Program-made: the position numbers and the translations under genes
NCBI RefSeq assembly: GCF_005860765.1
Contig: NZ_VCEI01000021.1
Span: 124,001-188,000, forward strand
Direction: 5' to 3'
Length of the DNA stretch: 64,000 bases
DNA from: Dyadobacter sediminis
Lineage (GTDB): Bacteria > Bacteroidota > Bacteroidia > Cytophagales > Spirosomataceae
Shown here: positions 49,100 to 64,000 of the stretch, in pieces
How positions within the stretch are numbered: position 1 is the stretch's first letter
Layout: each line of letters starts with the position of its first letter
Notes under the pieces: model-generated
The model's database searches: none
Told to the model about the DNA's origin: nothing
Seen by the model: the letters and a program-made list of their open reading frames with translations, nothing else

Positions 49100-52000
49100 T
49101 TAAAAAGTAAGATTAATGCCCACCGTATATTGTCTGGAAGAAGGGTAGGAGCCTTCATCCAGTCCGAATACCGTCGGACTGTTTCCTGAATTTCTGCTGA
49201 CTTCCGGATCGAGGCCGGAATAGCCGGTGATTGTAAATAGGTTGGTTGCCTGAAGATAAATGCGGAACTGCTGCGTTTTGATCTTTTTCAGAAATGCCGG
49301 AGAAAACGTGTAGCCAAGCTGAATATTCCTTGCCCGCAGATAAGATCCGTCTTCTACGAAATAGGAATTGGGAACATTGATCGTACTGAAAGAGCTTGAA
49401 TTTTCCTGGATCGGCGCTTTGGCATTGTGGTTTTCGGGTGTCCAGGAATCGTAAAGTGCAGTTTTGCTTTTTGCTCCGGAACGCGACGAGTTGAAATCGC
49501 TCCACCAGCGTGTCTGGTTCCAGATCTCATTTCCCTGAACGCCGTACAGGAACATACTGAAGTCAAATTGTTTGTAATTAAATCCAAGGTTCAGTCCGTA
49601 GCTAAAATCCGGGTTCGGATTGCCGAGCATGGTGCGGTCGGCAGAGGTAATCTGGCCATCACCGTTGCTGTTTTCATAACGGAATCGTCCTGGCGCAGCG
49701 CCGTCCTGATATACGGCATTTGCATCGCCGGTCTGCTGCACAGCCTGCGCGTTGGCAGCGGCAATTTCTTCATCCGAATTCCAGAAGCCGATTACTTTAT
49801 AGCCAAAAAACTGACCGATCGAGTTTCCGACCTGATTGCGGACGATGGAAGAACCATTGAACCCGCGGGCTTCCAGGTCAAAATAATTGCTGCTGTTCGT
49901 TACTTTCAGGATCTTGTTGTTGTAAGTCGTAAAAGTAAGCGTTGCGTTCATTTTAAGGTCTTGTCCAAGATCAAAACGCGAGTTAAGCTGCAGATCAATC
50001 CCTTTGTTTTTCATTTGACCGATATTCACGAAAGGGACCGTTCCGCCACCAGCTGTGCCGATCAGGGACGGGTTAAAAAGAAGGTCCTTGATTTCCTTGA
50101 CGTAATAATCTGCAATCAGGTCCAGCCTGCCTTTGAAGAAAGTGGCATCAATCCCAATGTTCGTACTGATGTTTTTTTCCCAGACTGCATCCGGATTTCC
50201 GATCTGGCTTTTTTCAAATCCTTCCAATGCGCCGTTGCCGCTGGTTCCGCCGAGGTCATAATAAGAACTGCGGCGGTTGGAGCTGTAAGTCGTGAATGCG
50301 TTTCCTGTATTTACGTTGATCTGATTCCCCATAACGCCATAATTAGCACGCAGTTTCAGGTCGTCGAGCCAACTGATGCCTTTCATGAAGTTTTCCTGTG
50401 AAATTCTCCATCCGGCACTCACAGCCGGGAACAAACCATATCGTTCATTGATGAATTTGGAAGAACCGTCTCTTCTTAAAACCGCGCCGAACAGGTATTT
50501 GTCATTGTAAATGTAATCCAGTCTTCCGATCAGGGAAAAAAGGGCATCGGCATTGCGGCTGCTGTAATTGCTTCTTGTTCCCGAGCCGGTCCCGAGATTC
50601 ATGTAGTTTGGATCAAAAGAAAAATAACCCTGTGTATCGCCGCCAAGTTCGTAACTCTTGCCACTATACGCTTCTGTTCCGGCAATGACTGTAAGGTCGT
50701 GCTTCTGCATGGTCTTGTGGAATGTGACAAGGTTTGTCCACGTCCAGTTGAAGCCTGAGTAAGCGCTTTCCGAATACGTATTGGTGTTGCTGTTTTCCTT
50801 GTTTTCGTAAGTCGGAAAAGCAAAGGAACGCGATCTGCCGGAGTAGTTCTCTCCGCCCAGGCTGGTTCTCAGCGTAAAGTTTTTGAACAGATCTACTTCT
50901 GCAAATACATTGCCGAAAAGGCGGTTGTCAAGTCCTTTGTTGTATCGGGTACGGTCACGCATGGCCACCGGGTTAAACGCATCGCCCATGCCGGAAGCAC
51001 GGCTGCCTGCATAATTGCCCATAATATCGTAAACCGGTATAATCGGCTGCATACGGAAAGAAAATGCTATAGCCGAGCCGCCATCCGAAAGGGCTGTTTT
51101 CGGATTGTCTGTAATGGAGTAAGCCAGGTTTTCGCCGATGCGGATGTGCTTGCCGATGTTATACTGGCTGTTGGAGCGGATGGTGTACCTTTTCAGATAT
51201 GTGTTCGTCAGCGCACCTTCCTGATTGAAATAATTTAATGAAAACAGATAGTTGCCCTGGTCGCTTCCGCCGCTCAGTGATATGTTGTGACTTGTGGAAG
51301 GTGCCGGTTTGAATATTTCATGAAACCAGTCGGTACCCGCTTTGTTCGCCTTTACAATCTGGTTGAACGTGTTGAAATCGTCCACGGAAGTATAGTTCGG
51401 GTTGACGTAATACAAGTCCGGGTTTGTGGCCGGATCGCCTTCTTTGGCACCGGTCGGCAAAATGTAATCCGGAAGAACCGGCGTTGCGCCGTGGCCATAC
51501 TGATCATCGCCAACGGGCAGGCCGGAATTTTTCTGAACCTGAAATTTCAGCTGCGCCTGTTCCATCGGGTTCAGTGTATTCCAGACATTCCCTTTCGGCG
51601 GCGTTTGTACGCCATACCATGCGCTGTAATTCACTTTTACCTTGTCTTTGCCTTTTTTGGTTGTAATAATGATTACACCGTTGGCTGCACGCGAACCGTA
51701 AATCGAAGCAGAGCCGGCGTCTTTCAGGACCTGCATGCTTGCAATGTCATTGGAGTTCAGGTCAGCAATAGAAGTGGTCGGAACGCCGTCGATTACATAA
51801 AGCGGCGAGTTATTTCCGAATGTGTTCAGACCGCGGATACGAACCTGCGGCGTTTCGCCCGGCTGTCCGGAACCGATGATCGTGACGCCGGATGCGCGTC
51901 CCTGCAACTGATTGGCAACCTGTGCGTCCGGCGTTTGTTTCAGCTGCTCCACGTCCACAACAGAAACGGCACCGATCAGGTCCTTTTTACGCTGTGCGCC

Positions 52001-52663
52001 GTAACCCGTCACCACCAGTTCCGAAAGCGTGGAAACGTCGGGCAGCAGCTTAATGTCCAGTGCAGTCCGCGTGCCAACCATTACTTCCTGCGCGGTAAAA
52101 CCGATAAAACTGAAAATAAGAATGGATTCATCGCCGGCAACGTCAATGCTGTAATTGCCTTCGAGGTCCGTCATGGTTCCGTCATTGGTTCCTTTTACCC
52201 GGATCGCAACGGACGGCAAAGCTTCGCCTTTGTCATCGGTAACCTTGCCTTTTACGGGCCGCAAGGCTGCCTGTGCTGTTTCTGCTGCGGATTCCTGCAC
52301 TTTCTCTGCTGCCGTTTTTTCCGTAACCCCGATCATGTTGCCGACCTGACTGAATTCCAGCGACGTTTGTTTTTCAATGAGTTTCAGAATAGCCGGAACA
52401 GGCAAGCCCATGGCATAAAGCGTTACCTGCGGTGCATTCCGCAGCATTTTTTCGTCAAAAGCAAACGTAACGCCGGTCTGCTGTTCGATCTGCCTGAATA
52501 CCGTTTTGACCTTCGTCTGCTTTACATCCATGTTGACACGCTGAGCCTCTGTGGTGCCGGCCATCAGCAAGGCCGTACTCAGCATGTTTATGCCCAGAAT
52601 AAGCGTAGAAATGCGCATACATTTTTTGAATAAGGGAATTCCCTTATGGTAATAATTCACCAT
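49100..52663 (-). CDS. SusC/RagA-type TonB-dependent transducer with STN domain
   Basis: This 1187-residue protein has an N-terminal signal (to ~40), then an STN secretin/TonB domain (about 45-115: VKTVFRQIEQQTGVTFAFDEKML). A carboxypeptidase-like domain, the plug (VVTGYGAQRKKDLIGAVSVVD, SIYGSRAANGVIIITTKKG) and the barrel follow. The STN domain is the part that passes a substrate signal to a FecR anti-sigma protein. FecR and sigma genes lie just upstream, so this is a self-regulating uptake system. Substrate unknown. Confidence 0.96.
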   Translation of the reverse strand: MVNYYHKGIPLFKKCMRISTLILGINMLSTALLMAGTTEAQRVNMDVKQTKVKTVFRQIEQQTGVTFAFDEKMLRNAPQVTLYAMGLPVPAILKLIEKQTSLEFSQVGNMIGVTEKTAAEKVQESAAETAQAALRPVKGKVTDDKGEALPSVAIRVKGTNDGTMTDLEGNYSIDVAGDESILIFSFIGFTAQEVMVGTRTALDIKLLPDVSTLSELVVTGYGAQRKKDLIGAVSVVDVEQLKQTPDAQVANQLQGRASGVTIIGSGQPGETPQVRIRGLNTFGNNSPLYVIDGVPTTSIADLNSNDIASMQVLKDAGSASIYGSRAANGVIIITTKKGKDKVKVNYSAWYGVQTPPKGNVWNTLNPMEQAQLKFQVQKNSGLPVGDDQYGHGATPVLPDYILPTGAKEGDPATNPDLYYVNPNYTSVDDFNTFNQIVKANKAGTDWFHEIFKPAPSTSHNISLSGGSDQGNYLFSLNYFNQEGALTNTYLKRYTIRSNSQYNIGKHIRIGENLAYSITDNPKTALSDGGSAIAFSFRMQPIIPVYDIMGNYAGSRASGMGDAFNPVAMRDRTRYNKGLDNRLFGNVFAEVDLFKNFTLRTSLGGENYSGRSRSFAFPTYENKENSNTNTYSESAYSGFNWTWTNLVTFHKTMQKHDLTVIAGTEAYSGKSYELGGDTQGYFSFDPNYMNLGTGSGTRSNYSSRNADALFSLIGRLDYIYNDKYLFGAVLRRDGSSKFINERYGLFPAVSAGWRISQENFMKGISWLDDLKLRANYGVMGNQINVNTGNAFTTYSSNRRSSYYDLGGTSGNGALEGFEKSQIGNPDAVWEKNISTNIGIDATFFKGRLDLIADYYVKEIKDLLFNPSLIGTAGGGTVPFVNIGQMKNKGIDLQLNSRFDLGQDLKMNATLTFTTYNNKILKVTNSSNYFDLEARGFNGSSIVRNQVGNSIGQFFGYKVIGFWNSDEEIAAANAQAVQQTGDANAVYQDGAAPGRFRYENSNGDGQITSADRTMLGNPNPDFSYGLNLGFNYKQFDFSMFLYGVQGNEIWNQTRWWSDFNSSRSGAKSKTALYDSWTPENHNAKAPIQENSSSFSTINVPNSYFVEDGSYLRARNIQLGYTFSPAFLKKIKTQQFRIYLQATNLFTITGYSGLDPEVSRNSGNSPTVFGLDEGSYPSSRQYTVGINLTF

Positions 52664-52831
52664 ATTTGTCTGATGTTTAAGGTGTAAACTGTTAAACTCT
52701 TTCCTTTCCTGCTACTCATGGTTCCAAGCATTGCATAGCGGACGGGATGATCATTGCCGGGGACATTTGCCGTGTCTCCGGTATTTTACGAGCTTGCCTT
52801 CCTTGAAAACAACCCGTCTTTTTGCGCGCTC

Positions 52832-53806
52832 TTATCTGATTACTATGGTGCTGTCGTTTAATTGTGAGTAATTGAATTTCTTTGAAAAGCTCATTACTTT
52901 CAGTACGTCGGTTATCGGCTGGTTATCCAGTGTAAATGAAATTTTCTCTGTTGAGAGATTTTCTTTTTCTATGATGATATGCTTTCTGTATTTTCTTTCA
53001 AGCACGTTAAAAACCTCGGATAACAGCTCGTCCTCGAAAACCAGGCGGTTGTCTTTCCATGATGCAATGGCCGGCTTGCTGATTTCAGCCACCTGGATTT
53101 TTGCTGTTTTTTCGGGAAGTACCGCCTGTTCGGCAGGCAGCAGCAGCAATGCCGGCGATTCCGGTTTGTCACGAAGCGTCACGCCGACTTTCCCCGTCTT
53201 GACGGAGACTTTGATGTGGCGGTCGTTTTTGTAAGCCTTTACGTCAAATGAAGTTCCGAGTACGGTAATATCCAGCTTTTTGGCATGCACGACAAACGGC
53301 TTTCCGGACAAATGCACAATATCAAAAAACGCCTGCCCTTCCTTTAATACAACTTCTCTGGTTTTTCCTGCAAAATGATCGGGATAACGCATGCTGGAAC
53401 CGGCATTCAGCCATACCGACGATCCGTCGGGCAAGTGTACTTTCAGCGTTTTGCCCAAAGGCGCCTGCACCAGATGCATTTCCGGACTGGCCGGTTTATG
53501 GCTGTTTGTCCAGAACAAAAATCCTGCGATGATCAATGCGGCTGCTGCCGTTGTCCAGTTTACCAGTCTTTTCAGCAATATCCAGTCCGGATTTCGGTTT
53601 CCGGGCTGCTGCATGGCTTTCAGCCCGGACAGCATGCGTTTTTTTATTTCATCAGCAGTTTCGGGATTGTTGGTAAAAACCGTTTCCGGTGGCTGTTCAT
53701 CGGAAGCCATTTGGTCGTACCAATCATGTAAAATCTTTTTTTCTTCCTCCGAGGCCGTTCCGCTCACGAATTTTCCAGCAAGCTGCCTGATGTATTCCTG
53801 TGTCAT
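52832..53806 (-). CDS. FecR-family anti-sigma/sigma-regulator
   Basis: This 324-residue protein has a cytoplasmic N-terminal helical domain (MTQEYIRQLAGKFVSGTASEEEKK), one membrane helix (about 87-105), then the periplasmic FecR domain (LPDGSSVWLNAGSSMRYP, REVVLKEGQAFFDI, VLGTSFDVKAY). The C-terminal STN-like DUF4974 part ends at residue 324. It receives the signal from the STN domain of the SusC receptor downstream and controls the ECF sigma factor upstream. It lies 168 bp before that SusC gene and 120 bp after the sigma gene. Confidence 0.94.
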   Translation of the reverse strand: MTQEYIRQLAGKFVSGTASEEEKKILHDWYDQMASDEQPPETVFTNNPETADEIKKRMLSGLKAMQQPGNRNPDWILLKRLVNWTTAAAALIIAGFLFWTNSHKPASPEMHLVQAPLGKTLKVHLPDGSSVWLNAGSSMRYPDHFAGKTREVVLKEGQAFFDIVHLSGKPFVVHAKKLDITVLGTSFDVKAYKNDRHIKVSVKTGKVGVTLRDKPESPALLLLPAEQAVLPEKTAKIQVAEISKPAIASWKDNRLVFEDELLSEVFNVLERKYRKHIIIEKENLSTEKISFTLDNQPITDVLKVMSFSKKFNYSQLNDSTIVIR

Positions 53807-53926
53807 TGCAAAGCGGATTTAGCCTTTGCATTACTTAGAGTAGGAATTCTTGTAAAACCCCTTAGTTGAAAATATAAAAACAGGGATTTTTGTTAAAGCC
53901 AATTAAAATTTGGGATAAAAGGAGGT

Positions 53927-54487
53927 TCAGAGTAGAAAGTGAGCAACGCTGCTAAGGTTTTCCCTGACCATTTTTAATGCTTTGGTGAGATGTGCCTCGG
54001 CGGTTTTATGCGATATGTTGAGTTCTTTGCAAATGTCGGACAAAGAGCGGTCCTGCAATTTGTTGTACTGAAACACAAGGCGGCATTTTTCAGGCAGCTT
54101 GTTGGTAAGATTCCGGATAATTTCCAGCAAAAGCCTGTTTTCAATTTCCTGATCCATGGAAACCGAGCGTACGGCCTGCTCTTTCATGGTAAGTTCCAGT
54201 TCCAGCGCCTGTCTGGATTTGGCAAGATAACGGTAAACCTCGTAGCGGAGCATAGCCGCCAGGTACGGCTTCACGGACTGGATTTCCAGTGTCTGCCGCT
54301 TGATCCAGAACAGCATAAAAGTGTCCTGTGTGATTTCTTCGGCTATTTCTGCGGATTTTACCAGCCGGTGCGCTGCATAAAAAAGCTTGTCCCAGTAGCG
54401 GTTGTAAATTTCATCAAATGCACCTTCTTCTCCGTCCTTCATCAAAGCGGCAAGCTCTTCATCGGAGAAGTTTCGGAAATCATTCAT
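53927..54487 (-). CDS. ECF RNA polymerase sigma factor (Bacteroidota type)
   Basis: This 186-residue sigma-70-like factor has region 2 (GAFDEIYNRYWDKLFYAAHRLVKSAEIAEEITQDTFMLFW) and region 4 (LPEKCRLVFQYNKLQDRSLSDICKELNISHKTAEAHLTKAL). It should transcribe the SusC/SusD genes that follow on the same strand, under control of the FecR protein encoded next. Two in-frame ATGs lie close together; 54487 gives the usual start MNDFRNFSDEELAALMK. Confidence 0.94.
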   Translation of the reverse strand: MNDFRNFSDEELAALMKDGEEGAFDEIYNRYWDKLFYAAHRLVKSAEIAEEITQDTFMLFWIKRQTLEIQSVKPYLAAMLRYEVYRYLAKSRQALELELTMKEQAVRSVSMDQEIENRLLLEIIRNLTNKLPEKCRLVFQYNKLQDRSLSDICKELNISHKTAEAHLTKALKMVRENLSSVAHFLL

Positions 54488-54946: not shown

Positions 54947-55525
54947 ATGCAGGAAGACATCCTTTTCCAGATCAGTAACAAATTAAAAGAAGTAAGAAAA
55001 AATAAAGGCGTGACGCTTCAGGAAATCGCGGACGAAGCGGGCGTTACCAAAAGCCTTGTCTCGCAGATTGAAAACAGCCGGACTATTCCGTCACTGCCCG
55101 TTATGCTCGGACTGATCAAGGCGCTTGACATAGACCTGAATGTTTTTTTCAAGGACATTATTTCCACTGCGCCCGGCGAAAATGTGCTTATCCGGAGAAA
55201 GGAAGAATATCAGCCTTTTACAAAGGAAAATGCCAAGGGTTTTTTTTACCAGCGCATTTTCAGCAAGCAATTCAAGGACAATCATATCGACGTAGTGCTG
55301 CTGCGGCTGGAAAAAGATGCGCGCCGGCCCATGGTCCGTACCAATGCGTACGAGTTCAAATATGTGCTTCAAGGTTCGGTGGAATATACGGTCGGGAAAA
55401 ACAAGTATGTTCTGAATCAGGGCGATTCCATGTTTTTTGATGCCAACGAGCTGCACAATCCAAGGTGCATCGATTGCGGCGAGGTTTTGCTGCTTGTCAT
55501 TTATTTCTTCAATGAGGCGCAGTAA
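54947..55525 (+). CDS. XRE-family HTH regulator with C-terminal cupin domain
   Basis: This 192-residue protein has an N-terminal helix-turn-helix (LKEVRKNKGVTLQEIADEAGVTKSLVSQIENSRTIPSLP, residues 11-50) and a C-terminal small-molecule-binding cupin (about 110-185, LQGSVEYTVGKNKYVLNQGDSMFFDANELHNP). This layout is common in regulators of catabolic genes. It is first in a plus-strand run with a PhnX-like hydrolase and an FAD oxidoreductase and is their most likely regulator. A 297-bp AT-rich gap separates it from the next gene, leaving room for an operator. Confidence 0.92.
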   Translation: MQEDILFQISNKLKEVRKNKGVTLQEIADEAGVTKSLVSQIENSRTIPSLPVMLGLIKALDIDLNVFFKDIISTAPGENVLIRRKEEYQPFTKENAKGFFYQRIFSKQFKDNHIDVVLLRLEKDARRPMVRTNAYEFKYVLQGSVEYTVGKNKYVLNQGDSMFFDANELHNPRCIDCGEVLLLVIYFFNEAQ

Positions 55526-55620
55526 ACGTACTTTGTTTTAAATTCTCTCAAAAGTTAAATATTAATTAACATTCTCTTAATCTGATTTCGGTTTTTGTGC
55601 TGCATCTTTGTATGCTGAAT

Positions 55621-55647
55621 AATGTAAATGAATGTTTACTTAACATT
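55621..55647. promoter_or_regulatory. Nested inverted repeat in the gap before the PhnX-like gene
   Basis: GTAAA (55624-55628) and TTTAC (55635-55639) are separated by 6 nt and lie inside AATGT...ACATT (55621-55625 and 55643-55647). It could be an operator for the XRE-cupin regulator. The sequence is AT-rich, so chance is not excluded. Confidence 0.25.
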
Positions 55648-55822
55648 TGGTGCTATTTTATTTGCATTCTGAATAATAAACTTATATTTTTAAGCCTCAT
55701 AAGATTTACAGCCGAATTTTTAGCAACTTGAATCGTTTAATATTACTTTACAATATTCAGGATTTATCATTTTGGTTTAGGTAGCATATAAGTTTAAATC
55801 AGTTCACTAATATTCAGGTAAG

Positions 55823-56533
55823 ATGTTTACAGAACTTGTTGTTTTTGACATGGCGGGAACCACGGTCAGGGACAAAAATTACGTGGGAATTGCATTTCAG
55901 CAAGCCATGAAATCGCGCGGCTACGACATTACGCCGGAAGATGTAAATCCGTTGATGGGTTATCAGAAACCGCTGGCGATAAAAATGATTCTCGAGATGC
56001 GGGAAGAGGATAAAAGCAAAATCACGGATGCACTGATTTCGGAAATCCATGCGGAGTTTGTGCAGCACATGCTTCATTTTTACAGTACGACACAGGACAT
56101 TGCGCCGCTTCCGGGTGTGGAGGAAACTTTTGGTGCATTGCGTAAAAAAGGCATTAAGATAGCGCTGAACACCGGCTTTTCCAGAGATATCGCGGATGTA
56201 ATTGTGGACCGGCTTGGCTGGAAGGATAAAATAGACATGCTGGTTGCGAGTGACGAAGTGCCAAACGGCCGGCCATACCCGGACATGATCCGGAAAATCA
56301 TGCATGCGCTGAAAATTGATTCTCCCGAAAAAGTGGCGAAAGTAGGTGATACCGAAGTAGATGTGAATGAAGGCATCAATGCCGGCTGCAAGTATGTGAT
56401 CGGGATTACAACGGGCGCTTTTACGCGTGAAGAATTACTGCCTTACGGCCCGACGCACATCATCGACAACATTGCGGACATAATCGGGATTATTTCAGAG
56501 AGCAATGCGTATGCGGCTCAGAAAAGTTTGTAG
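55823..56533 (+). CDS. PhnX-like (phosphonatase-like) HAD hydrolase
   Basis: This 236-residue HAD-superfamily protein starts with VVFDMAGTTVRD. Asp9 is the nucleophile and the +2 residue is Ala, as in phosphonoacetaldehyde hydrolase PhnX, rather than the Asp of ordinary HAD phosphatases. In the cap domain MGYQK places Lys49 where PhnX has its Schiff-base lysine (MGLLK). NTGFSRD, GRPYPDMI and KVGDTEVDVNEG complete the HAD motifs. It matches the phosphonatase-like hydrolase group (TIGR03351), whose substrate is thought to be related to phosphonoacetaldehyde. It lies 19 bp before the FAD oxidoreductase gene. Confidence 0.88.
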   Translation: MFTELVVFDMAGTTVRDKNYVGIAFQQAMKSRGYDITPEDVNPLMGYQKPLAIKMILEMREEDKSKITDALISEIHAEFVQHMLHFYSTTQDIAPLPGVEETFGALRKKGIKIALNTGFSRDIADVIVDRLGWKDKIDMLVASDEVPNGRPYPDMIRKIMHALKIDSPEKVAKVGDTEVDVNEGINAGCKYVIGITTGAFTREELLPYGPTHIIDNIADIIGIISESNAYAAQKSL

Positions 56534-56552
56534 GCGATTAATTTGAATCAGA

Positions 56553-57683
56553 ATGAATAAATCTGCTATTGTCATCGGAGCAGGAATTGTCGGGCTTGCA
56601 ACCGCAAGGGCGCTGGCTGTCAGAAATTATAAAGTAACCGTTATTGAAAGGTCGTCCAAGGCAATAGGCGCTTCCATCCGTAACTTCGGAATGGTGTGGC
56701 CGATTGGTCAGCCGGAAGGAAAGCTGTACGAAAGGGCTTTGCATGCCAAAAGCATCTGGAAAGAAATGCTGGCGGGAGCCGGATGCTGGTCGTATGAAGG
56801 CGGAAGTCTGCATATGGCTTACCGGCAGGATGAAATGGAGGTGCTGGAACAATTTGCGGCAGTAAGCCAGTACAGGCCGGTCAGCGTGCTGAGTGCGGAG
56901 GAAACTTTGGCAAAATCACCGGCAGTTAACGGCAAGGATTTGCTTGGTTCCCTGTTTTCGGCAGATGAAATGATTGTCGATCCGCGGGAAGCAATTGCCG
57001 AAATTCCCGGATTCCTGCAGTCGGCTTTGAATGTTGATTTTATCTGGGATACGGCCATTTCGGAAATAGATTATCCGAATGTTTATTCCGGTAGAAAAAG
57101 CTGGTCGGCGGACGAACTATTCGTTTGCAGCGGACAGGATTTTGAAACGCTTTATCCTGAAAAATTTTCCGAGGCGCCGCTTACCAAATGCAAGCTTCAG
57201 ATGCTCAGGCTTGAAGCACAGCCGGATAACTGGAAAATAGGGCCATCATTGTGCGGCGGACTTTCACTTATTCATTACCACGGGTTCAGAGCGGCAGCGT
57301 CCCTGGCCGGGCTGAAAGAACGCTACGAAAAAGAATACAGCGAATATTTGAAATGGGGAATTCACGTCATGGCTTCACAAAACGGGCTGGGCGAAATCAC
57401 AGTCGGTGATTCGCACGAATACGCACTGACGTTCGAGCCGTTTGACAGAGAATTTATCAATACGATGATTCTGGATTATCTCGGAACATTCGCACAGTTC
57501 AGATCGCCGAAGGTTTTTCAGACATGGCACGGAATATACCCGAAAATGACCAACGGACAGTCGGAAATCGTAATAAAGCCGGAAAGCGGGGTAACGATTA
57601 TCAACGGTTTGGGCGGCAACGGAATGACCTTGTCATTTGGCTTGTGCGATGAAGTGATTGGTGGTACTTACCGGGCTTTATAG
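56553..57683 (+). CDS. TIGR03364-type FAD-dependent oxidoreductase (phosphonate-associated, DAO-like)
   Basis: This 376-residue protein has the FAD-binding start AIVIGAGIVGLATARALA and the subgroup-specific ASIRNFGMVWPIGQP, ending with VTIINGLGGNGMTLSFG near the C-terminus. The family belongs to the D-amino-acid-oxidase superfamily. This subgroup is known to sit beside the PhnX-like hydrolase group and is proposed to deaminate an aminophosphonate oxidatively. Here it follows such a hydrolase by 19 bp, the same pairing. The exact amine is not known. It is cytoplasmic. Confidence 0.88.
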   Translation: MNKSAIVIGAGIVGLATARALAVRNYKVTVIERSSKAIGASIRNFGMVWPIGQPEGKLYERALHAKSIWKEMLAGAGCWSYEGGSLHMAYRQDEMEVLEQFAAVSQYRPVSVLSAEETLAKSPAVNGKDLLGSLFSADEMIVDPREAIAEIPGFLQSALNVDFIWDTAISEIDYPNVYSGRKSWSADELFVCSGQDFETLYPEKFSEAPLTKCKLQMLRLEAQPDNWKIGPSLCGGLSLIHYHGFRAAASLAGLKERYEKEYSEYLKWGIHVMASQNGLGEITVGDSHEYALTFEPFDREFINTMILDYLGTFAQFRSPKVFQTWHGIYPKMTNGQSEIVIKPESGVTIINGLGGNGMTLSFGLCDEVIGGTYRAL

Positions 57684-57849
57684 AAGGGAAAAGTCAGATG
57701 TAGCACAGTGCTGAAAGCATAAAAATATGGATCAGGAATGCAGGACGGGCTTATAAGGTCGGAAGCCAGCGGATTTTGTTTTGATTTAACAGCCGGAGTT
57801 TTTCAACAGACTTGCGGCCTCAGCTGAACACAATAAACCAATCATATTT

Positions 57850-60800
57850 ATGAAAGCTACATTTACTGAATCCATTCCTCTGATGCGGTACGGATGGCTT
57901 GCCTTGGGCATGATCGTCACGACCCATGCAGCGCTGCTGGCCGGAGGTACGACAAACCGGCTTGCCTCAGAAAACAAAATAACAGGAAATTCAGGGAATT
58001 CACGTGCTGCGTATGTCGGTATAACGTTAGGGAAAAAGGCGACTTCAGTCCTGGATGTAAACGGTGTTGTCAGAGATAAAAACGGTCAGGCGCTTCCCGG
58101 TGTAAACATCATTGTAAAAAATTCCCAGAAAGGAACTACAACGAATGCAAACGGCGAATTTTCCATTTCCGTTGATTCGGAAAACGACGTGCTGGTTTTT
58201 TCTTTTATCGGATATAAAACGCAGCAGTTTGTCGTCGGAAACCAGAAAGAACTGGCAATTACGTTGCAGGAAGATACCAACGTACTGGACGAAGTTGTCG
58301 TAACGGCTTTGGGTATAACAAGAGAGAAAAAATCGCTTGGCTATGCCACGCAGCAGGTTACCGGAGAAATACTGAACGAATCGCCAGCCACGAACTTTGT
58401 CAATAACCTTTCGGGGAAAGTCGCCGGCGTGAACATCAGTAGCGCAGGCGGTGTGGGTTCTTCTTCCCGGATTACGATCCGCGGAGAATCTTCCTTGTCC
58501 ATTATGAGCAATCAGCCGCTTTTCGTCATTGACGGCGTGCCCATCGGCAATGACGGCACGAGCAACACCGGAAGTGCCGATTACGGAAACAGTTCTTCGG
58601 AAATCAATCCCGCCGACATCGAATCCATTAATGTGCTGAAAGGCCCGGCCGCTGCTGCCTTGTACGGCTCGCGTGCCGCGCGGGGTGCCATTGTGATTAC
58701 GACCAAAAAAGGCAGCAACCGCAAAGGGCTGGGCGTAAGCTTCAATTCCTATTTCTTTGGCGAAAGTGTCGGAAGACTTCCGAAATTTCAGAACGACTTC
58801 GGGCAGGGAAACAACGGCAAATACGAGGGTTCCAACTTCGGTGCAAGCTGGTCTGCGTACCCGAGCGGCGATAACGACGATTACGATGAAAGCTGGGGCC
58901 CGCGCATGAACATCGGGACTACGGAAGCGCAGTTTGACTCACCGACTACAAACGGTTTCCGCGGCGGCGACGTTGCCATCAACAACCGGGGTGATATCAT
59001 TCGGACACCATGGGTTTCACAGCCGGATAACATCAAGGATTTTTTCAAAAGCGGATCCAAATATTATAACAACCTTGCATTTTCCGGCGGCAATGAAAAC
59101 GGCGATTACCGGCTTTCACTGACTTCTCTGAATGAAAAAGGCGTTATCCCGAACAACAACCTGAACCGTTATCAGGTCAATCTGAACAGCAGTTATCATC
59201 TTACGAAGAAACTGACTTCTTCCATTAATATCAATTACGTAAAACAAAGCAGTACCAACCGTCCCGACAACGGCTACGGCCGCAATACGTTCATGTATTT
59301 TTTTACGTGGATGGGAAGAAATGTCAACATCAACAGTCTGCGGAATTACTGGCAGCCGGGGCTGGAAGGCGTCAGGCAGTTTCAGTACAACTATGGCGAA
59401 AACCACAACAATCCTTTTTTCCTGCAGTATGAAAATACCAAAGGCCAGAACAAGGACCGCGTTTACGGAAACATTGCGCTGGAATATGCCTTTACCGATC
59501 ACCTGAAACTGAAACTGCGTTCTGCGGCGGATCTTTACAACGATTTCCGGCCGATGCAATGGGCGGTGAGCACCGTGGATGTGGAAAGCGGAAGTTACTC
59601 ATTTACCGAAATCAAGAACGAAGAACGGAACACAGATTTTCTTCTAACGTATACCAATGCATTTGGTAACGGTGATTTTGGCTACACCTTTTCAGCCGGC
59701 GGCAACCGTTTCGACAATTCCGGACACAGCGAAAGCACCACTGCGCCGCAGCTGCTGATTCCCGGCATTTACACGATCCAGAATGCGGCGAGCCCTTTAA
59801 CGGGTTATTCCAGCAGCTATAAAAAGCGGATCAACAGCGTTTACGGCGTGGCTAATTTCAATTACAAAGATCTGGTTTATCTGGACATCAATGCGCGGAA
59901 TGACTGGTCGAGTACGCTTCCAAAGAATAACAATTCCTACTTTTATCCGTCCGTTGGCCTGAATACAAACCTTAAAAGCATTCTGAATCTGCCGAAAGGA
60001 ATCAGTCAGGCGCAGTTGCGCGGAAGCTGGGCGCAGGTCGGAAACGATACGGGTCCTTATTCCATTTACAATACGTACGGCAATGCAAGTCCGTGGGCAA
60101 ACAACTATGCGCTCGTTGGGCCGGGATCGTTGCTGAACCCGAATCTTAAGCCGGAAATCACTTCTACGTATGAGTTTGGAGCGGCAGTCGGCTTTTTTAA
60201 CAATCGTCTGGGGCTGGATGTGACTTATTACGATATCCGTTCCAAAAACCAGATCATCAGCCTGCCGCTTGTTCAGAGTTCGGGTGCAACTTCCAAGCAG
60301 ATCAATGCCGGACAAATCAAAAATACCGGTGTGGAGATCATGATCAATTCGACACCGGTCAGTACGGCCAGTTTCAAATGGAATTTCAATATCAACTGGT
60401 CGCATAATACCGGAAAAATCGTTTCGCTGACAAGCGAGGTGGACAAGATCGTTCAGGCTGCGCCGGGTGAAGATGCGTCCATTCAGGCGAGAGTAGGCGA
60501 GAAAATGGGTGCGATCTGGGGCCCGGGTTATCAGCGCGTTGCGGACGGACCTATGAAAGGCGAGATCATTATTTTTAACGATGCTTATCCGCGGCCGACT
60601 TCCGAAGACATTCATCTTGGAAACTATAACCCGGACTGGATCGCAGGGATTTATAATCAGCTTACGTATAAAAACATCAGTCTGAACTTTGCTTTCGGCG
60701 GTCAGTTCGGCGGCGAATTTATTTCCCGTTTTTTCAACAAGGCGGCGGGAGCCGGACAATTGGAAGAAAGTGCAATGGGCCGTTCTGCGCGTGCTGCCGG

Positions 60801-61230
60801 AACGGAATATGACGCACCGTATTACATTCCGGGCGCTGCACAAATGGAAGACGGAAGCTTTCAGCCGAATAATACAAGCACGGACGGAACATACAGCGCA
60901 GGCGTTTACGGAACCAATGCCCGCTATTTTATCAAAAAACCGTTAGACCATATTTCAGAAGCACAGATTTTCAGTTCCACGTATTTCAAGCTGAGAGAAT
61001 TGTCGCTCGGGTACAGCTTACCGACCAAATGGATTTCGGGCAAGTACATTAAAAATGCAAGGATTTCCGTAACGGGAAGGAACCTGCTGTTATTTACGCC
61101 GAAAAGCAACAGGCATTTTGATCCGGAAGTGGCCACAGCTACATCGGGCGGCGGTCTGATCCCCGGTTTTGAAAATATGAGTACGCCTTCCACAAGGGAA
61201 ATGGGTGTGAGTATCAATCTGAATTTCTGA
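57850..61230 (+). CDS. SusC/RagA-type TonB-dependent receptor of the phosphonate-like locus
   Basis: This 1126-residue protein has an unusually long N-terminal lead. A membrane segment at about 14-32 (GWLALGMIVTTHAALLAGG) follows 13 residues and precedes a ~45-residue linker. The carboxypeptidase-like domain (about 75-150) has FIGYKTQQF, the plug starts VTALGITREKKSLGYATQ, and LYGSRAARGAIVITTKKG is the SusC signature. The barrel ends MGVSINLNF. It lacks an STN domain, so it is not tied to sigma/FecR control. It lies 166 bp after the FAD oxidoreductase gene and 21 bp before its SusD partner. Paralogue of the SusC at 1-3108. Confidence 0.95.
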   Translation: MKATFTESIPLMRYGWLALGMIVTTHAALLAGGTTNRLASENKITGNSGNSRAAYVGITLGKKATSVLDVNGVVRDKNGQALPGVNIIVKNSQKGTTTNANGEFSISVDSENDVLVFSFIGYKTQQFVVGNQKELAITLQEDTNVLDEVVVTALGITREKKSLGYATQQVTGEILNESPATNFVNNLSGKVAGVNISSAGGVGSSSRITIRGESSLSIMSNQPLFVIDGVPIGNDGTSNTGSADYGNSSSEINPADIESINVLKGPAAAALYGSRAARGAIVITTKKGSNRKGLGVSFNSYFFGESVGRLPKFQNDFGQGNNGKYEGSNFGASWSAYPSGDNDDYDESWGPRMNIGTTEAQFDSPTTNGFRGGDVAINNRGDIIRTPWVSQPDNIKDFFKSGSKYYNNLAFSGGNENGDYRLSLTSLNEKGVIPNNNLNRYQVNLNSSYHLTKKLTSSININYVKQSSTNRPDNGYGRNTFMYFFTWMGRNVNINSLRNYWQPGLEGVRQFQYNYGENHNNPFFLQYENTKGQNKDRVYGNIALEYAFTDHLKLKLRSAADLYNDFRPMQWAVSTVDVESGSYSFTEIKNEERNTDFLLTYTNAFGNGDFGYTFSAGGNRFDNSGHSESTTAPQLLIPGIYTIQNAASPLTGYSSSYKKRINSVYGVANFNYKDLVYLDINARNDWSSTLPKNNNSYFYPSVGLNTNLKSILNLPKGISQAQLRGSWAQVGNDTGPYSIYNTYGNASPWANNYALVGPGSLLNPNLKPEITSTYEFGAAVGFFNNRLGLDVTYYDIRSKNQIISLPLVQSSGATSKQINAGQIKNTGVEIMINSTPVSTASFKWNFNINWSHNTGKIVSLTSEVDKIVQAAPGEDASIQARVGEKMGAIWGPGYQRVADGPMKGEIIIFNDAYPRPTSEDIHLGNYNPDWIAGIYNQLTYKNISLNFAFGGQFGGEFISRFFNKAAGAGQLEESAMGRSARAAGTEYDAPYYIPGAAQMEDGSFQPNNTSTDGTYSAGVYGTNARYFIKKPLDHISEAQIFSSTYFKLRELSLGYSLPTKWISGKYIKNARISVTGRNLLLFTPKSNRHFDPEVATATSGGGLIPGFENMSTPSTREMGVSINLNF

Positions 61231-61251
61231 ACAGTTTAAAACCTTGTGATC

Positions 61252-62796
61252 ATGAAAAAGTCTTGCTATATACTCTTTTTTGTCCTGCTTACGGGAGTAA
61301 GCTGTACAAAGGATTTTGAAGAAATCAATACCAATCCCAATTCGCCGGATAAAGTGACCAATGTCGGTCTGCTTTTGCCAAACGTGATCCGCAGTGCGGT
61401 AAACAGCCATTACGACAATTCCTACAACCGCGGAAGTGTCGCTGCCAACATGCTGGCTTCCGATTATGCCAGTAATTTCAGCAACTGGGCGCGTTCGGAT
61501 GCAAGCAGTTATTTTTTCTGGAATTATTATGATTACATCCGAGATCTGAACGAGGTCATCAGCATTGCCGAAACGCAGGATCAGAAAAGTTACAAAGGAA
61601 TTGCATTGGTGCTCCGTTCCTGGATGTTTCAGTGCCTGACTGATCTGTACGGCCCGATTCCTTTTCGGGAAGCTGCCAATGCAAAGCTGACGGGCATCAG
61701 TGCGCCGAAATTCGAGCAGCAGGAAGCGGTGTATGCCGGCTTGCTGGCCGATCTGGAAGAAGCCAATAATCTGCTTGGAAGCACAAACGAGCCTGTAACC
61801 GGCGATATTCTGTACAATGGAAATATGGCGAACTGGAAAAAGTTTGCAAACAGCCTGCGATTGCGTTTGCTGCTGCGCCAGTCAGAAAGAGTAGATCCGG
61901 CTGCGGCCATGAAAGCCATTGTTGAAAATCCTGCCAAATATCCGTTGTTCACTTCCTACGAAGATCAGGCAGCATTGCAGTATCTCGTAGATCGTCCGTC
62001 GAACGAATCTCCTTTTTACCGTTCCGGCAACGGCGGAACCAATACAAAAGTCACCAAGCAATTGGTTGATTATCTGAAAGCATTGAACGATACTCGATTG
62101 TATGCTTATGCATTGCCAACACCTGCAAGCAGCGCCGTGGATGCAAACGGCAACCGCCCCGATCCTAAAAACTTTCAGTATGCGGGCGACCTGAACGGCA
62201 TCGGAAATTTCCCGGACAACAACCTTACTTCGCCGACGGGCATGTTGTGGATGTCTATTCAGTATTCACCCGATCTGGCGTCTGCAACGGCCGGACAGGG
62301 AATCATCATCAGTTACTCGGAAGTACAGTTTATTCTGGCGGAAGCAGCTGAAAAGGGATTTATTGCAGGCGGATCGGCAGCGGCGGAAACGTATTACAAA
62401 AACGGCATCAAAGATCAGTTCAAGTATTACAGCAGCCGCATTTCGTCCAACTTGGCAACTTCTTATCTGAAACTTACGCCCGCGAGCATTTCGGTGAGTG
62501 ACAGCTATTTTACACAACCCGCCGTTGCCTATGCCGGAACGCAGCCGCAGAAACTGGAAAAAATCGCCCTGCAGAAATGGATCTCACTTTATATGGTCGG
62601 TTATGAAGCCTGGTCGGAATGGCGGCGCACCGGATTTCCTGCTATTCCCGTTGGCCCGATTGGTCCCGGTTATGTGCCAAGAAGGATTTTGTACCCTGCG
62701 GATGAAATCAGGATTAATCAGGCAAATTACAATGAAGCCGTAAGCTGGCTTGGCGCAGATGATCTGAAAACGCGCGTCTGGTGGGATAAACAGTAA
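61252..62796 (+). CDS. SusD/RagB-family outer-membrane lipoprotein (SusD-like_2 type)
   Basis: This 514-residue protein is read from the ATG at 61252 (MKKSCYILFFVLLTGVSC); a GTG two codons upstream is also in frame. The lipobox Cys is at residue 18. NTNPNSPDKV follows at once, typical of the PF12771 SusD-like group. FQCLTDLYGPIPFREA and WISLYMVGYEAWSEWRRTGFP are conserved family segments. It should bind the imported molecule at the cell surface as the partner of the SusC just upstream. An exported phosphatase-like lipoprotein follows 18 bp later. Confidence 0.94.
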   Translation: MKKSCYILFFVLLTGVSCTKDFEEINTNPNSPDKVTNVGLLLPNVIRSAVNSHYDNSYNRGSVAANMLASDYASNFSNWARSDASSYFFWNYYDYIRDLNEVISIAETQDQKSYKGIALVLRSWMFQCLTDLYGPIPFREAANAKLTGISAPKFEQQEAVYAGLLADLEEANNLLGSTNEPVTGDILYNGNMANWKKFANSLRLRLLLRQSERVDPAAAMKAIVENPAKYPLFTSYEDQAALQYLVDRPSNESPFYRSGNGGTNTKVTKQLVDYLKALNDTRLYAYALPTPASSAVDANGNRPDPKNFQYAGDLNGIGNFPDNNLTSPTGMLWMSIQYSPDLASATAGQGIIISYSEVQFILAEAAEKGFIAGGSAAAETYYKNGIKDQFKYYSSRISSNLATSYLKLTPASISVSDSYFTQPAVAYAGTQPQKLEKIALQKWISLYMVGYEAWSEWRRTGFPAIPVGPIGPGYVPRRILYPADEIRINQANYNEAVSWLGADDLKTRVWWDKQ

Positions 62797-62814
62797 TACG
62801 TTAACTTAAAAACT

Positions 62815-64000
62815 ATGTTATCAAAAGTATTGTGCATGCTGTCATCGGTAAGTTTGCTGATGACGGCATGTACCAAAAGTTCCGAAGAAAAACCTTCCGG
62901 CATTGAGCATGTAATTGTGATTGGCGTGGACGGACTAAGCCCGGACGGCATTCAAAAAGCCGAAACGCCGCATCTCGACAATATGGTTGCCAACGGCAGC
63001 GTCAAATGGAATGTGCGTTCCGTGCTCACTTCCAGCAGCAGCCAGAACTGGGCTTCCATGATTATGGGCGCCGGACCGGAGCAGCACGGCATCATCAACA
63101 ACGACTGGGAAATGGACGATCACACGTTGCCGCCGGTTGTGGAGGAAGCAGACGGACGTTTTCCGACCATTTTCAGTATTCTTCACAAGAGTAAACCGGA
63201 AGCAGAGATCGGAACTGTTTATCACTGGGACGGATTTGGCCGGTTATTTCAAAAGAATGCCGTTAATTATGACAAGCGTTTTTCAACAGAAGATTCCACT
63301 GCCGCCGATTTTATCAATTATATCAAAACAAAAAAGCCCGTTCTCGGTTTTGTTCATTTTGATCACGTGGATCATGCGGGGCATCACGGCGGGCACGGTT
63401 CGCCGGAATATTACAAAGCGGTTGCCAAAGCGGATTCGCTGATCGGGAACATACTGGCGGGAATTAGGGCAGCGGGAATCGAGGATAAAACGCTGGTGAT
63501 TGTTTGGGCGGATCATGGCGGGATCGGGTACGGACATGGAGGCGCCACGCCGCAGGAAGCCGAAATTGCCGGGATTTTTTACGGAAAAGATGTTAAAAAA
63601 GGGTATAAAATTGAGCAGCAGGTTTATACGTACGATCTGGCGTCTACAATCGCCTTTGCGCTTGATGTTCAGCAGCCTTATGCGTGGATCGGCCGTCCTG
63701 TAAAACCGGTTTTTGAAGGATTAAAAGAACCTGAAAATCTGTGGCTTGGCGAAAAAAGGATTGCTTCTCCGGTTATTTACCCCGAACGGAAATTGTATCA
63801 GCAGGCTGGCGGATTGTATACAGATCAAACGGCTTCTGTCAAAATTGATACGAAAGCTGAAAACAGCGTAACAAGATACACGACGGACGGAAGCGAGCCG
63901 GACAGCACATCGGTAGTTTATAAAAATCCTTTTACGGTAGCTAAAACGACGGTCGTAAAAGCAAAATCATTTAATAAGGAAGGCAAGGAAAGTTTGTCGG
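62815..64000 (+). CDS. Alkaline-phosphatase-superfamily lipoprotein, NPP/PhnA-like (3' end cut by window edge)
   Basis: At least 395 residues are visible. A signal with lipobox LMTAC (Cys19) comes first. The catalytic domain of the nucleotide-pyrophosphatase/phosphonoacetate-hydrolase type follows: VIGVDGLSPDG with metal Asp39, a Ser cluster (74-76) before QNW in the nucleophile position, FDHVDHAGHHGGHG and VWADHGGIGYGHGG with metal Asp and His. From about residue 345 a chitobiase-like C-terminal domain begins (YTTDGSEPDSTSVVY). It would cleave a phospho- or phosphonate ester outside the cytoplasm. It lies 18 bp after susD and closes the visible part of the locus. Confidence 0.88.
   Translation, partial: MLSKVLCMLSSVSLLMTACTKSSEEKPSGIEHVIVIGVDGLSPDGIQKAETPHLDNMVANGSVKWNVRSVLTSSSSQNWASMIMGAGPEQHGIINNDWEMDDHTLPPVVEEADGRFPTIFSILHKSKPEAEIGTVYHWDGFGRLFQKNAVNYDKRFSTEDSTAADFINYIKTKKPVLGFVHFDHVDHAGHHGGHGSPEYYKAVAKADSLIGNILAGIRAAGIEDKTLVIVWADHGGIGYGHGGATPQEAEIAGIFYGKDVKKGYKIEQQVYTYDLASTIAFALDVQQPYAWIGRPVKPVFEGLKEPENLWLGEKRIASPVIYPERKLYQQAGGLYTDQTASVKIDTKAENSVTRYTTDGSEPDSTSVVYKNPFTVAKTTVVKAKSFNKEGKESLS

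Follow-up and report, generated by a model that had tools for sequence, protein, structure and literature searches.

Several described systems overlap in part with the locus considered here; what we say of them refers to the accessible parts of the cited texts. SusCD-phosphoesterase (Pus, PusCD) loci, said to include enzymes that degrade phosphonates, have been described from Flavobacterium (Lidbury et al. 2020, PMC8115612). PbfA is an (R)-1-hydroxy-2-aminoethylphosphonate (R-HAEP) ammonia-lyase that yields phosphonoacetaldehyde (PMC8154272), and PbfD enzymes oxidize N-methyl-2-aminoethylphosphonate (N-methyl-AEP) to the same aldehyde, PbfD1 of A. baumannii being a member of TIGR03364 (PMC10590968). 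We analyzed a 64,000-nt stretch of Dyadobacter sediminis DNA (the window; positions 124001-188000 of contig NZ_VCEI01000021.1, within a 6.2-Mb genome of 33 contigs), in which the initial annotation had described a run of six plus-strand genes for a regulator, a HAD hydrolase, an FAD oxidoreductase, SusC, SusD and an exported phosphoesterase. All six genes lie where they were first placed, the last being cut by the window end, and the gaps of 297 bp after the regulator and 166 bp before susC are correct. Extending the contig to the right, as had been proposed, revealed genes for PbfA and a DUF5690 protein just past the window. The full order on one strand is therefore regulator, HAD, FAD, SusC, SusD, phosphodiesterase (PDE), PbfA and DUF5690.

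We conclude, with a probability of about 0.68, that this is a surface-to-cytosol aminophosphonate scavenging locus in which the PDE would release an R-HAEP-type head group esterified to a lipid or glycan. The earlier proposal that the locus serves aminophosphonates, with the SusCD pair and the exported phosphoesterase as members of the catabolic system, is well supported by synteny that extends to other families and by a shared operator-like site. We infer an R-HAEP-type ester as the substrate.

Within the genus, 31/37 Dyadobacter genomes gave a PbfA score above the cut-off, compared to 0/22 genomes drawn from other families in the order. HAD, FAD, PDE, PbfA and DUF5690 follow one another in this order on one strand in all 30 congener loci and our own (31/31 PbfA-bearing genomes). 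Conserved gene order had been suggested as a check of the locus; it was found for these five genes throughout these genomes, with synteny of the locus genes in other families as well. The regulator adjoins HAD in 24/30 congener loci (25/31 with our own), a count of adjacency with no genome-wide search for the regulator in the other six. The closest named relative that we met was Dyadobacter flavalbus NS28, whose eight locus proteins are 90-99% identical. The SusCD pair is an exchangeable part of the locus and is found there in 7/31 genomes. Four congeners (G026, G033, G009 and G030) carry a second, paralogous locus (L108-L111) with genes for SusC, SusD, another alkaline-phosphatase-superfamily enzyme, FAD, a metallophosphatase, DUF5690 and HAD and no PbfA; in the G026 copy, FAD is over the TIGR03364 cut-off and HAD over that of TIGR03351 (222.3 bits). 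Separately, we observed high regulator identity in the congener loci with an adjacent copy, at 91-99% in 23 of them and 83% in the 24th (L060), while HAD is 69-92% identical and most other locus proteins are also less conserved than the regulator. Such constancy may reflect a wider regulatory role.

The linkage between PDE and phosphonate genes extends beyond Dyadobacter. Among 395 genomes of the phylum, PbfA was present in 15, PDE (at E values up to 1e-40) in 16, and both in 11 (hypergeometric probability 7e-15, with kinship ignored); four genomes had PbfA without PDE and five had PDE without PbfA. The two genes were on one stretch in 9/11 genomes and on different contigs in the other two (G175 and G392). 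Other PDE-PbfA loci hold PhnW and PhnA, both over cut-off, and PhnY, 3 bits under its cut-off. We also scanned named genomes with a PDE alignment and examined the loci of the best 80 of 218 relatives, 8 of which are from Dyadobacter; here identity thresholds took the place of curated models (at least 40% identity for PbfA), and SusC and SusD were best blast matches with no identity floor. PbfA was found in 47/80 loci and a PhnZ-like HD oxygenase in 11/80, never both, so that 58/80 carried one or the other. This agrees with the statement that clusters with phnZ never contain pbfA (PMC8154272, accessible text). SusD stood directly before PDE in 35/80 loci, and SusC and SusD were both present in 36 of the 58 with a phosphonate gene. 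The genera represented include Flagellimonas, Allomuricauda, Leeuwenhoekiella, Euzebyella, Mangrovimonas, Arenibacter, Maribacter and Roseivirga. In Chitinophaga oryziterrae (L128), the regulator, HAD, DUF5690, FAD, SusC (69% identical), SusD (66%), PDE and a PhnZ-like gene occur together; this is the same locus with a PhnZ-like gene in the place of PbfA. One PhnZ-like protein matched PhnZ (1.7e-35) and TmpB (2.4e-30) in the PDB, and of eight such proteins scanned, two passed TIGR03276 and six fell short by 19-35 bits. A PhnY*-like hydroxylase was detected, far below the family cut-off, in 1/80 loci using a single weak query, and given this near-absence the hydroxyphosphonate may be imported as such. 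As a side observation, records from Brevundimonas, Phenylobacterium and Caulobacteraceae (L176, L178, L179 and L196) have PDE beside a PhnZ-like gene, so this pairing is not confined to Bacteroidota.

A 20-bp operator-like block before HAD, GTTAAATATTAATTAACATT, is conserved across an alignment of 29 loci. We searched the 37 Dyadobacter genomes with the pattern GTTHARTATWAATTAAYATT, which had been widened to include the alignment variants and the copy before SusC in L102 (G016), a copy that thus shaped the pattern and has one mismatch to the narrower version. At up to one mismatch we found 47 sites, compared to 3 for the backward control. Thirty-one copies lie before HAD, one per PbfA-bearing genome (29 exact, and two with one mismatch, in G005 and G017), and beyond these there are 10 exact copies and six with one mismatch. 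Five of the six PbfA-less genomes lack any site; the sixth, G031, has a single one-mismatch copy. All 10 further exact copies precede, on the same strand, a SusC-SusD pair encoded elsewhere. In G008, G016 and G021, this is a stand-alone orthologue of the window SusCD (SusD 76-88% identical), and in G002, G003, G010, G017, G027, G032 and G034, it corresponds to the SusCD-phosphoesterase cassette found in the paralogous locus (SusC 78-82% and SusD 75-76% identical; the G002 SusD aligned whole, over 492/492 residues). Three of the ten (L100, L101 and L102) were known before the pattern was fixed; the seven second-cassette copies were not. The ten trace back to about two ancestral arrangements and so do not count as ten independent events. 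Keeping the site after relocation of SusCD is what a regulon predicts. Altogether, 17/31 genomes tie SusCD to the system, 7 within the locus and 10 through the site. The remaining one-mismatch copies lie roughly 90 bp ahead of a different SusC, oriented away from it (G033 and G014, not counted), in a long coding frame (G016 and G007), between unrelated genes (G012), or at the junction of two export-type genes (G031). In Flavobacteriaceae, 19 gaps between a divergent regulator and SusC give a different conserved block, and for this reason we can only infer that the XRE-cupin protein binds the operator-like site. The Flavobacteriaceae block consists of TATTTGTAAATA followed by TAAC (19 loci among L144-L190) and is a candidate operator of their own regulator.

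The PDE is a protein of 554 aa with PF01663 (108.7-110.1 bits), CHB_HEX_C_1 and PA14 domains. A structural model of the D. flavalbus copy (predicted local distance difference test score [pLDDT], 90.9) gave Xac NPP and ENPP3 as best fold matches, followed by ENPP6 and ENPP5. Ser75 aligned to the NPP nucleophile position, and Ser75 and Asn78 were invariant in 41/41 PDEs. The protein thus has the family domain, the fold, a nucleophile at the Thr position (Ser, not Thr) and the Asn three residues further on that mark an NPP. The earlier description as an exported lipoprotein of the alkaline-phosphatase superfamily therefore holds as to export and lipid anchor, and its type can be refined to an NPP-type phosphodiesterase. 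Such a fold would suit a phosphonate monoester, with one ester bond and one charge as in a phosphodiester. Surface lipoproteins of Bacteroidota carry acidic residues after the lipobox, and a pattern-based call gave the same arrangement in our PDE. When we applied this simple sequence pattern across the genus, PDE was full-length and a lipoprotein in 7/7 genomes with in-locus SusCD, compared to lipoprotein type in 7 or 8 of the 24 others (Fisher p 0.0013 or 0.0024, kinship ignored; G008 was added by eye in one of the tests and G011 is doubtful). In the genomes with the relocated second SusCD cassette, PDE lacked a lipobox in 7/7 and the C-terminal domains in 6/7. The PDE may accordingly reside at the surface with the first importer and in the periplasm with the second, as far as these patterns indicate. 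We also noted PDEs composed of two PDE-like halves and about 820-836 aa long (L087:6419-8926, L092:6476-8929 and L093:6889-9351), with two PF01663 stretches in L087 and with PbfA, PhnA and PhnY genes as neighbors. Between PDE and PbfA, several Flavobacteriaceae loci encode an exported protein (about 420 aa) whose match to the metallo-beta-lactamase fold is weak (L085:10334-11602 and L144:11656-12927).

The cytosolic enzymes point to phosphonoacetaldehyde. PbfA exceeded the NF049939 equivalog cut-off by 208 bits, and FAD was well over that of TIGR03364. HAD matched PhnX in the PDB (3.8e-24), its Lys49 aligned to the PhnX lysine that is changed to arginine in PDB entry 2ioh, and D9, A11, G12, T13 and K49 were identical in 65/65 aligned HADs from these loci, which bears out the DxAGTT loop and the Schiff-base lysine assigned at first. 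Since none of the 37 Dyadobacter genomes has a PhnW match at E 1e-20, phosphonoacetaldehyde in this genus probably comes from FAD and PbfA. We dropped a phosphonate-biosynthesis reading, as phosphoenolpyruvate (PEP) mutase had no over-cut-off match in the 37 genomes. In eleven congeners, a member of the PEP mutase/isocitrate lyase superfamily is encoded just upstream of the regulator, a few kb ahead of FAD (for example L040:7264-8085, L055:7445-8251 and L057:10930-11751), and scores far under the PEP mutase cut-off; it is absent beside the regulator in the window. In addition, the G021 locus has a second PbfA-like gene between FAD and PDE (L049:8828-10147) that is 45% identical and, at 636 bits, over the NF049939 cut-off. 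The DUF5690 model (pLDDT 90.1) had G6PT/SLC37A4 organophosphate antiporters as its five best fold matches, with GlpT at rank 46 and other major facilitator superfamily (MFS) families scoring close behind.

Taken together, these data suggest the following route. The surface NPP-type lipoprotein would hydrolyze a phosphonate monoester (phosphonolipid or phosphonoglycan), releasing an aminophosphonate that is most probably R-HAEP or a closely related compound. This product or a larger fragment would be imported by SusCD, and the free phosphonate would cross the inner membrane via the DUF5690 MFS protein, a role suggested by fold and position. By analogy with characterized family members, PbfA would remove ammonia from R-HAEP to give phosphonoacetaldehyde, and FAD would in parallel oxidize AEP or N-methyl-AEP to the same compound. 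The PhnX-like HAD would then use Lys49 to split phosphonoacetaldehyde into acetaldehyde and phosphate. In other Dyadobacter genomes, the 20-bp operator-like site would link this presumed operon to SusCD cassettes located away from it. The route first proposed, import followed by FAD and HAD breakdown, is thus retained in outline; it was incomplete, since PbfA adds a second way to phosphonoacetaldehyde and points to R-HAEP.

Table. Features of the locus; window positions, or positions on L009, where the contig is read on to the right.
Feature	Position	Strand	Evidence
Regulator, XRE-type helix-turn-helix (HTH) plus cupin	54947..55525	+	HTH_3 49.7 bits, Cupin_2 42.4 bits
Operator-like block, 20 bp, GTTAAATATTAATTAACATT	55554..55573	+	conserved in 29 aligned loci
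HAD, PhnX-like hydrolase, DxAGTT loop and Lys49	55823..56533	+	TIGR03351 212.7 bits
FAD, oxidoreductase TIGR03364 (PbfD-type)	56553..57683	+	415.1 vs. cut-off 285.1 bits
SusC-type TonB-dependent transporter	57850..61230	+	TIGR04056 658.5 vs. cut-off 368.25 bits
SusD-type lipoprotein	61246..62796	+	PF12771 300.8 bits
PDE, exported NPP-type phosphodiesterase lipoprotein	62815..64000, +479 bases past window	+	PF01663
PDE, complete gene	L009:816-2480	same strand as locus	contig read on to right
PbfA	L009:2546-3904, outside window	same strand as locus	NF049939 733.2 vs. cut-off 525 bits
DUF5690 inner-membrane protein	L009:3922-5217, outside window	same strand as locus	PF18943 467.2 bits

Beyond the window, 65 bp separate PDE from PbfA and 17 bp separate PbfA from DUF5690, which is followed by 568 bp before nhaA. 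On the other side, a minus-strand group at 49100-54487 of the window, named by reading as an ECF (extracytoplasmic function) sigma factor, a FecR-like anti-sigma factor and a SusC-type receptor with a secretin-like N-terminal part, is divergent to the locus and adjoins it in part of the congeners only.

A number of observations weigh against aminophosphonate scavenging as we describe it. HAD falls just under the TIGR03351 cut-off (212.7 vs. 218.9 bits) and fails TIGR01422, the PhnX phosphonatase model (133.7 vs. 220 bits); because of these shortfalls of 6 and 86 bits, we label it PhnX-like rather than PhnX. DUF5690 shows no significant sequence match to the organophosphate:phosphate antiporter family. 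The PhnZ-like neighbors also resemble oxygenases for other 1-hydroxyphosphonates, and R-HAEP is therefore not the sole possible product. SusCD lies between FAD and PDE in 6/30 congeners (7/31 with our own), and 12/31 genomes have neither an in-locus SusCD nor a site near any SusC. None of the four full paralogous loci has a copy of the site at up to one mismatch. Finally, no recognized phosphonate gene lies in 22 of the 80 PDE loci, of which 12 span less than 16 kb and 10 do not, the latter including L124 and L126, whose PDE is 63% identical.

These 22 loci speak for a rival reading, general Pus-type scavenging of organic phosphorus, in which common phosphodiesters such as nucleotides and phospholipids would be the PDE substrates and the phosphonate enzymes would be carried along or co-regulated under phosphate starvation. 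The NPP fold, with the phosphocholine-releasing ENPP6 and ENPP7 among the best matches, would suit such an enzyme, and the operator-like block contains TTAA repeats with an 11-bp period, which we take to resemble PHO boxes. However, PDE stands beside PbfA or a PhnZ-like gene in the other 58 loci, with PhnW, PhnA and PhnY elsewhere, and no link of the site to phosphate genes was found in its own genome. A strict three-repeat pattern occurs at 11 places there (control, 3), none before recognizable phosphate genes, a pattern with a -7 box has zero matches in that genome, the locus itself included, and its sole PstS-family match falls below the cut-off. We set aside the PHO-box idea for the block; these searches neither support nor exclude control by PhoB. 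On balance, we consider general Pus-type scavenging unlikely, at perhaps a one-in-five chance.

Alternatively, SusCD could be an ordinary glycan importer that landed by chance between FAD and PDE, with the remaining genes forming a phosphonate unit. Its limited presence at the locus and the large size of the SusC and SusD families in the genus (25-67 candidates per genome at a first look) would allow this, but the 10/10 further exact site copies before SusC-SusD pairs, three of them orthologous to the window pair, the position of SusD directly before PDE in 35 of the 80 loci, and the lipoprotein form of PDE in all seven in-locus-SusCD genomes (vs. 7 or 8 of 24 others) make a chance insertion improbable. 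Least probable is that the cytosolic enzymes act on another amine and phosphate ester: HAD is below both family cut-offs and TIGR03364 and TIGR03351 are only hypothetical equivalogs, but PbfA lies 208 bits over an equivalog cut-off, the Schiff-base lysine and DxAGT residues are identical in 65/65 HADs, and TIGR03364 includes PbfD1, from a group that oxidizes N-methyl-AEP (PMC10590968, accessible text).

A bolder and tentative extension of aminophosphonate scavenging, which we hold at somewhat less than even odds, is that the exported lipoprotein is the founding member of a phosphonate-ester hydrolase family whose enzymes remove R-HAEP (or an N-methylated relative) from the lipids or glycans of other organisms, and that Bacteroidota pair this hydrolase with interchangeable SusCD importers, joined in Dyadobacter into one regulon by the 20-bp site. 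In nature, aminophosphonate is to a large extent bound within lipids and glycans. For bacterial access to this bound material, the locus offers candidates for the hydrolase, the outer-membrane importer, the inner-membrane transporter and the regulatory site; the aminophosphonate pathways in the papers cited here, in their accessible text, begin with free small phosphonates. The mutual exclusion of PbfA and PhnZ-like neighbors yields a sharp prediction of the released compound, R-HAEP. The natural abundance of R-HAEP is little known, the sources named being Acanthamoeba polysaccharides and Bdellovibrio stolpii lipids (PMC8154272, accessible text). If the hydrolase family is real, HAEP-decorated macromolecules would be a widespread phosphorus source, and phosphonate SusCD systems would form a class of their own beside the glycan ones.

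Comparison with known systems places the locus nearest to the Pus loci, with which it shares a SusCD-like pair, phosphoesterases and the lack of named carbohydrate-active enzymes; the co-localization of SusCD with a phosphoesterase that defines them is present here. The initial annotation knew of no described system with this combination; the Pus loci already fill that place. No PbfA, R-HAEP, DUF5690, NPP-PA14 lipoprotein or shared operator is named in the accessible text on those loci (PMC8115612). The phnWX-pbfA clusters (Zangelmi et al. 2021, PMC8154272) likewise join PbfA to a PhnX-type hydrolase, but that survey counted clusters with PhnW (or PalB or PhnY*), compared to 0/37 for PhnW in Dyadobacter, and its accessible text mentions no exported PDE, SusCD or TonB. 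In clusters with PbfD (TIGR03364) and phnX only (Zangelmi et al. 2023, PMC10590968), FAD adjoins HAD without PhnW, as here, whereas no Bacteroidetes, TonB or outer-membrane part is mentioned in the accessible text. The AEP transporters AepXVW, AepP and AepSTU (PMC8316502) also link aminophosphonate uptake to catabolic genes including PbfA; they are other proteins, and the accessible text describes no SusCD importer. Polysaccharide utilization loci resemble this one in having SusC-SusD and a lipoprotein hydrolase at the surface that carries PA14 and CHB_HEX domains, but this run has no glycoside hydrolase or lyase, and no carbohydrate-active enzyme is among the families of all eight locus proteins, so the locus does not class as one of them. 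In a literature search that left most subscription journals outside its reach, we found no shared operator, PDE-PbfA/PhnZ linkage or DUF5690 role among the matches listed; SusD with aminoethylphosphonate appeared only in a reference list, no title on Dyadobacter and phosphonate concerned this subject, and nothing on DUF5690 was found. As far as searched, then, loci of this kind are already described in outline, and the composition, the regulon and the candidate phosphonate-ester hydrolase of this one are new.

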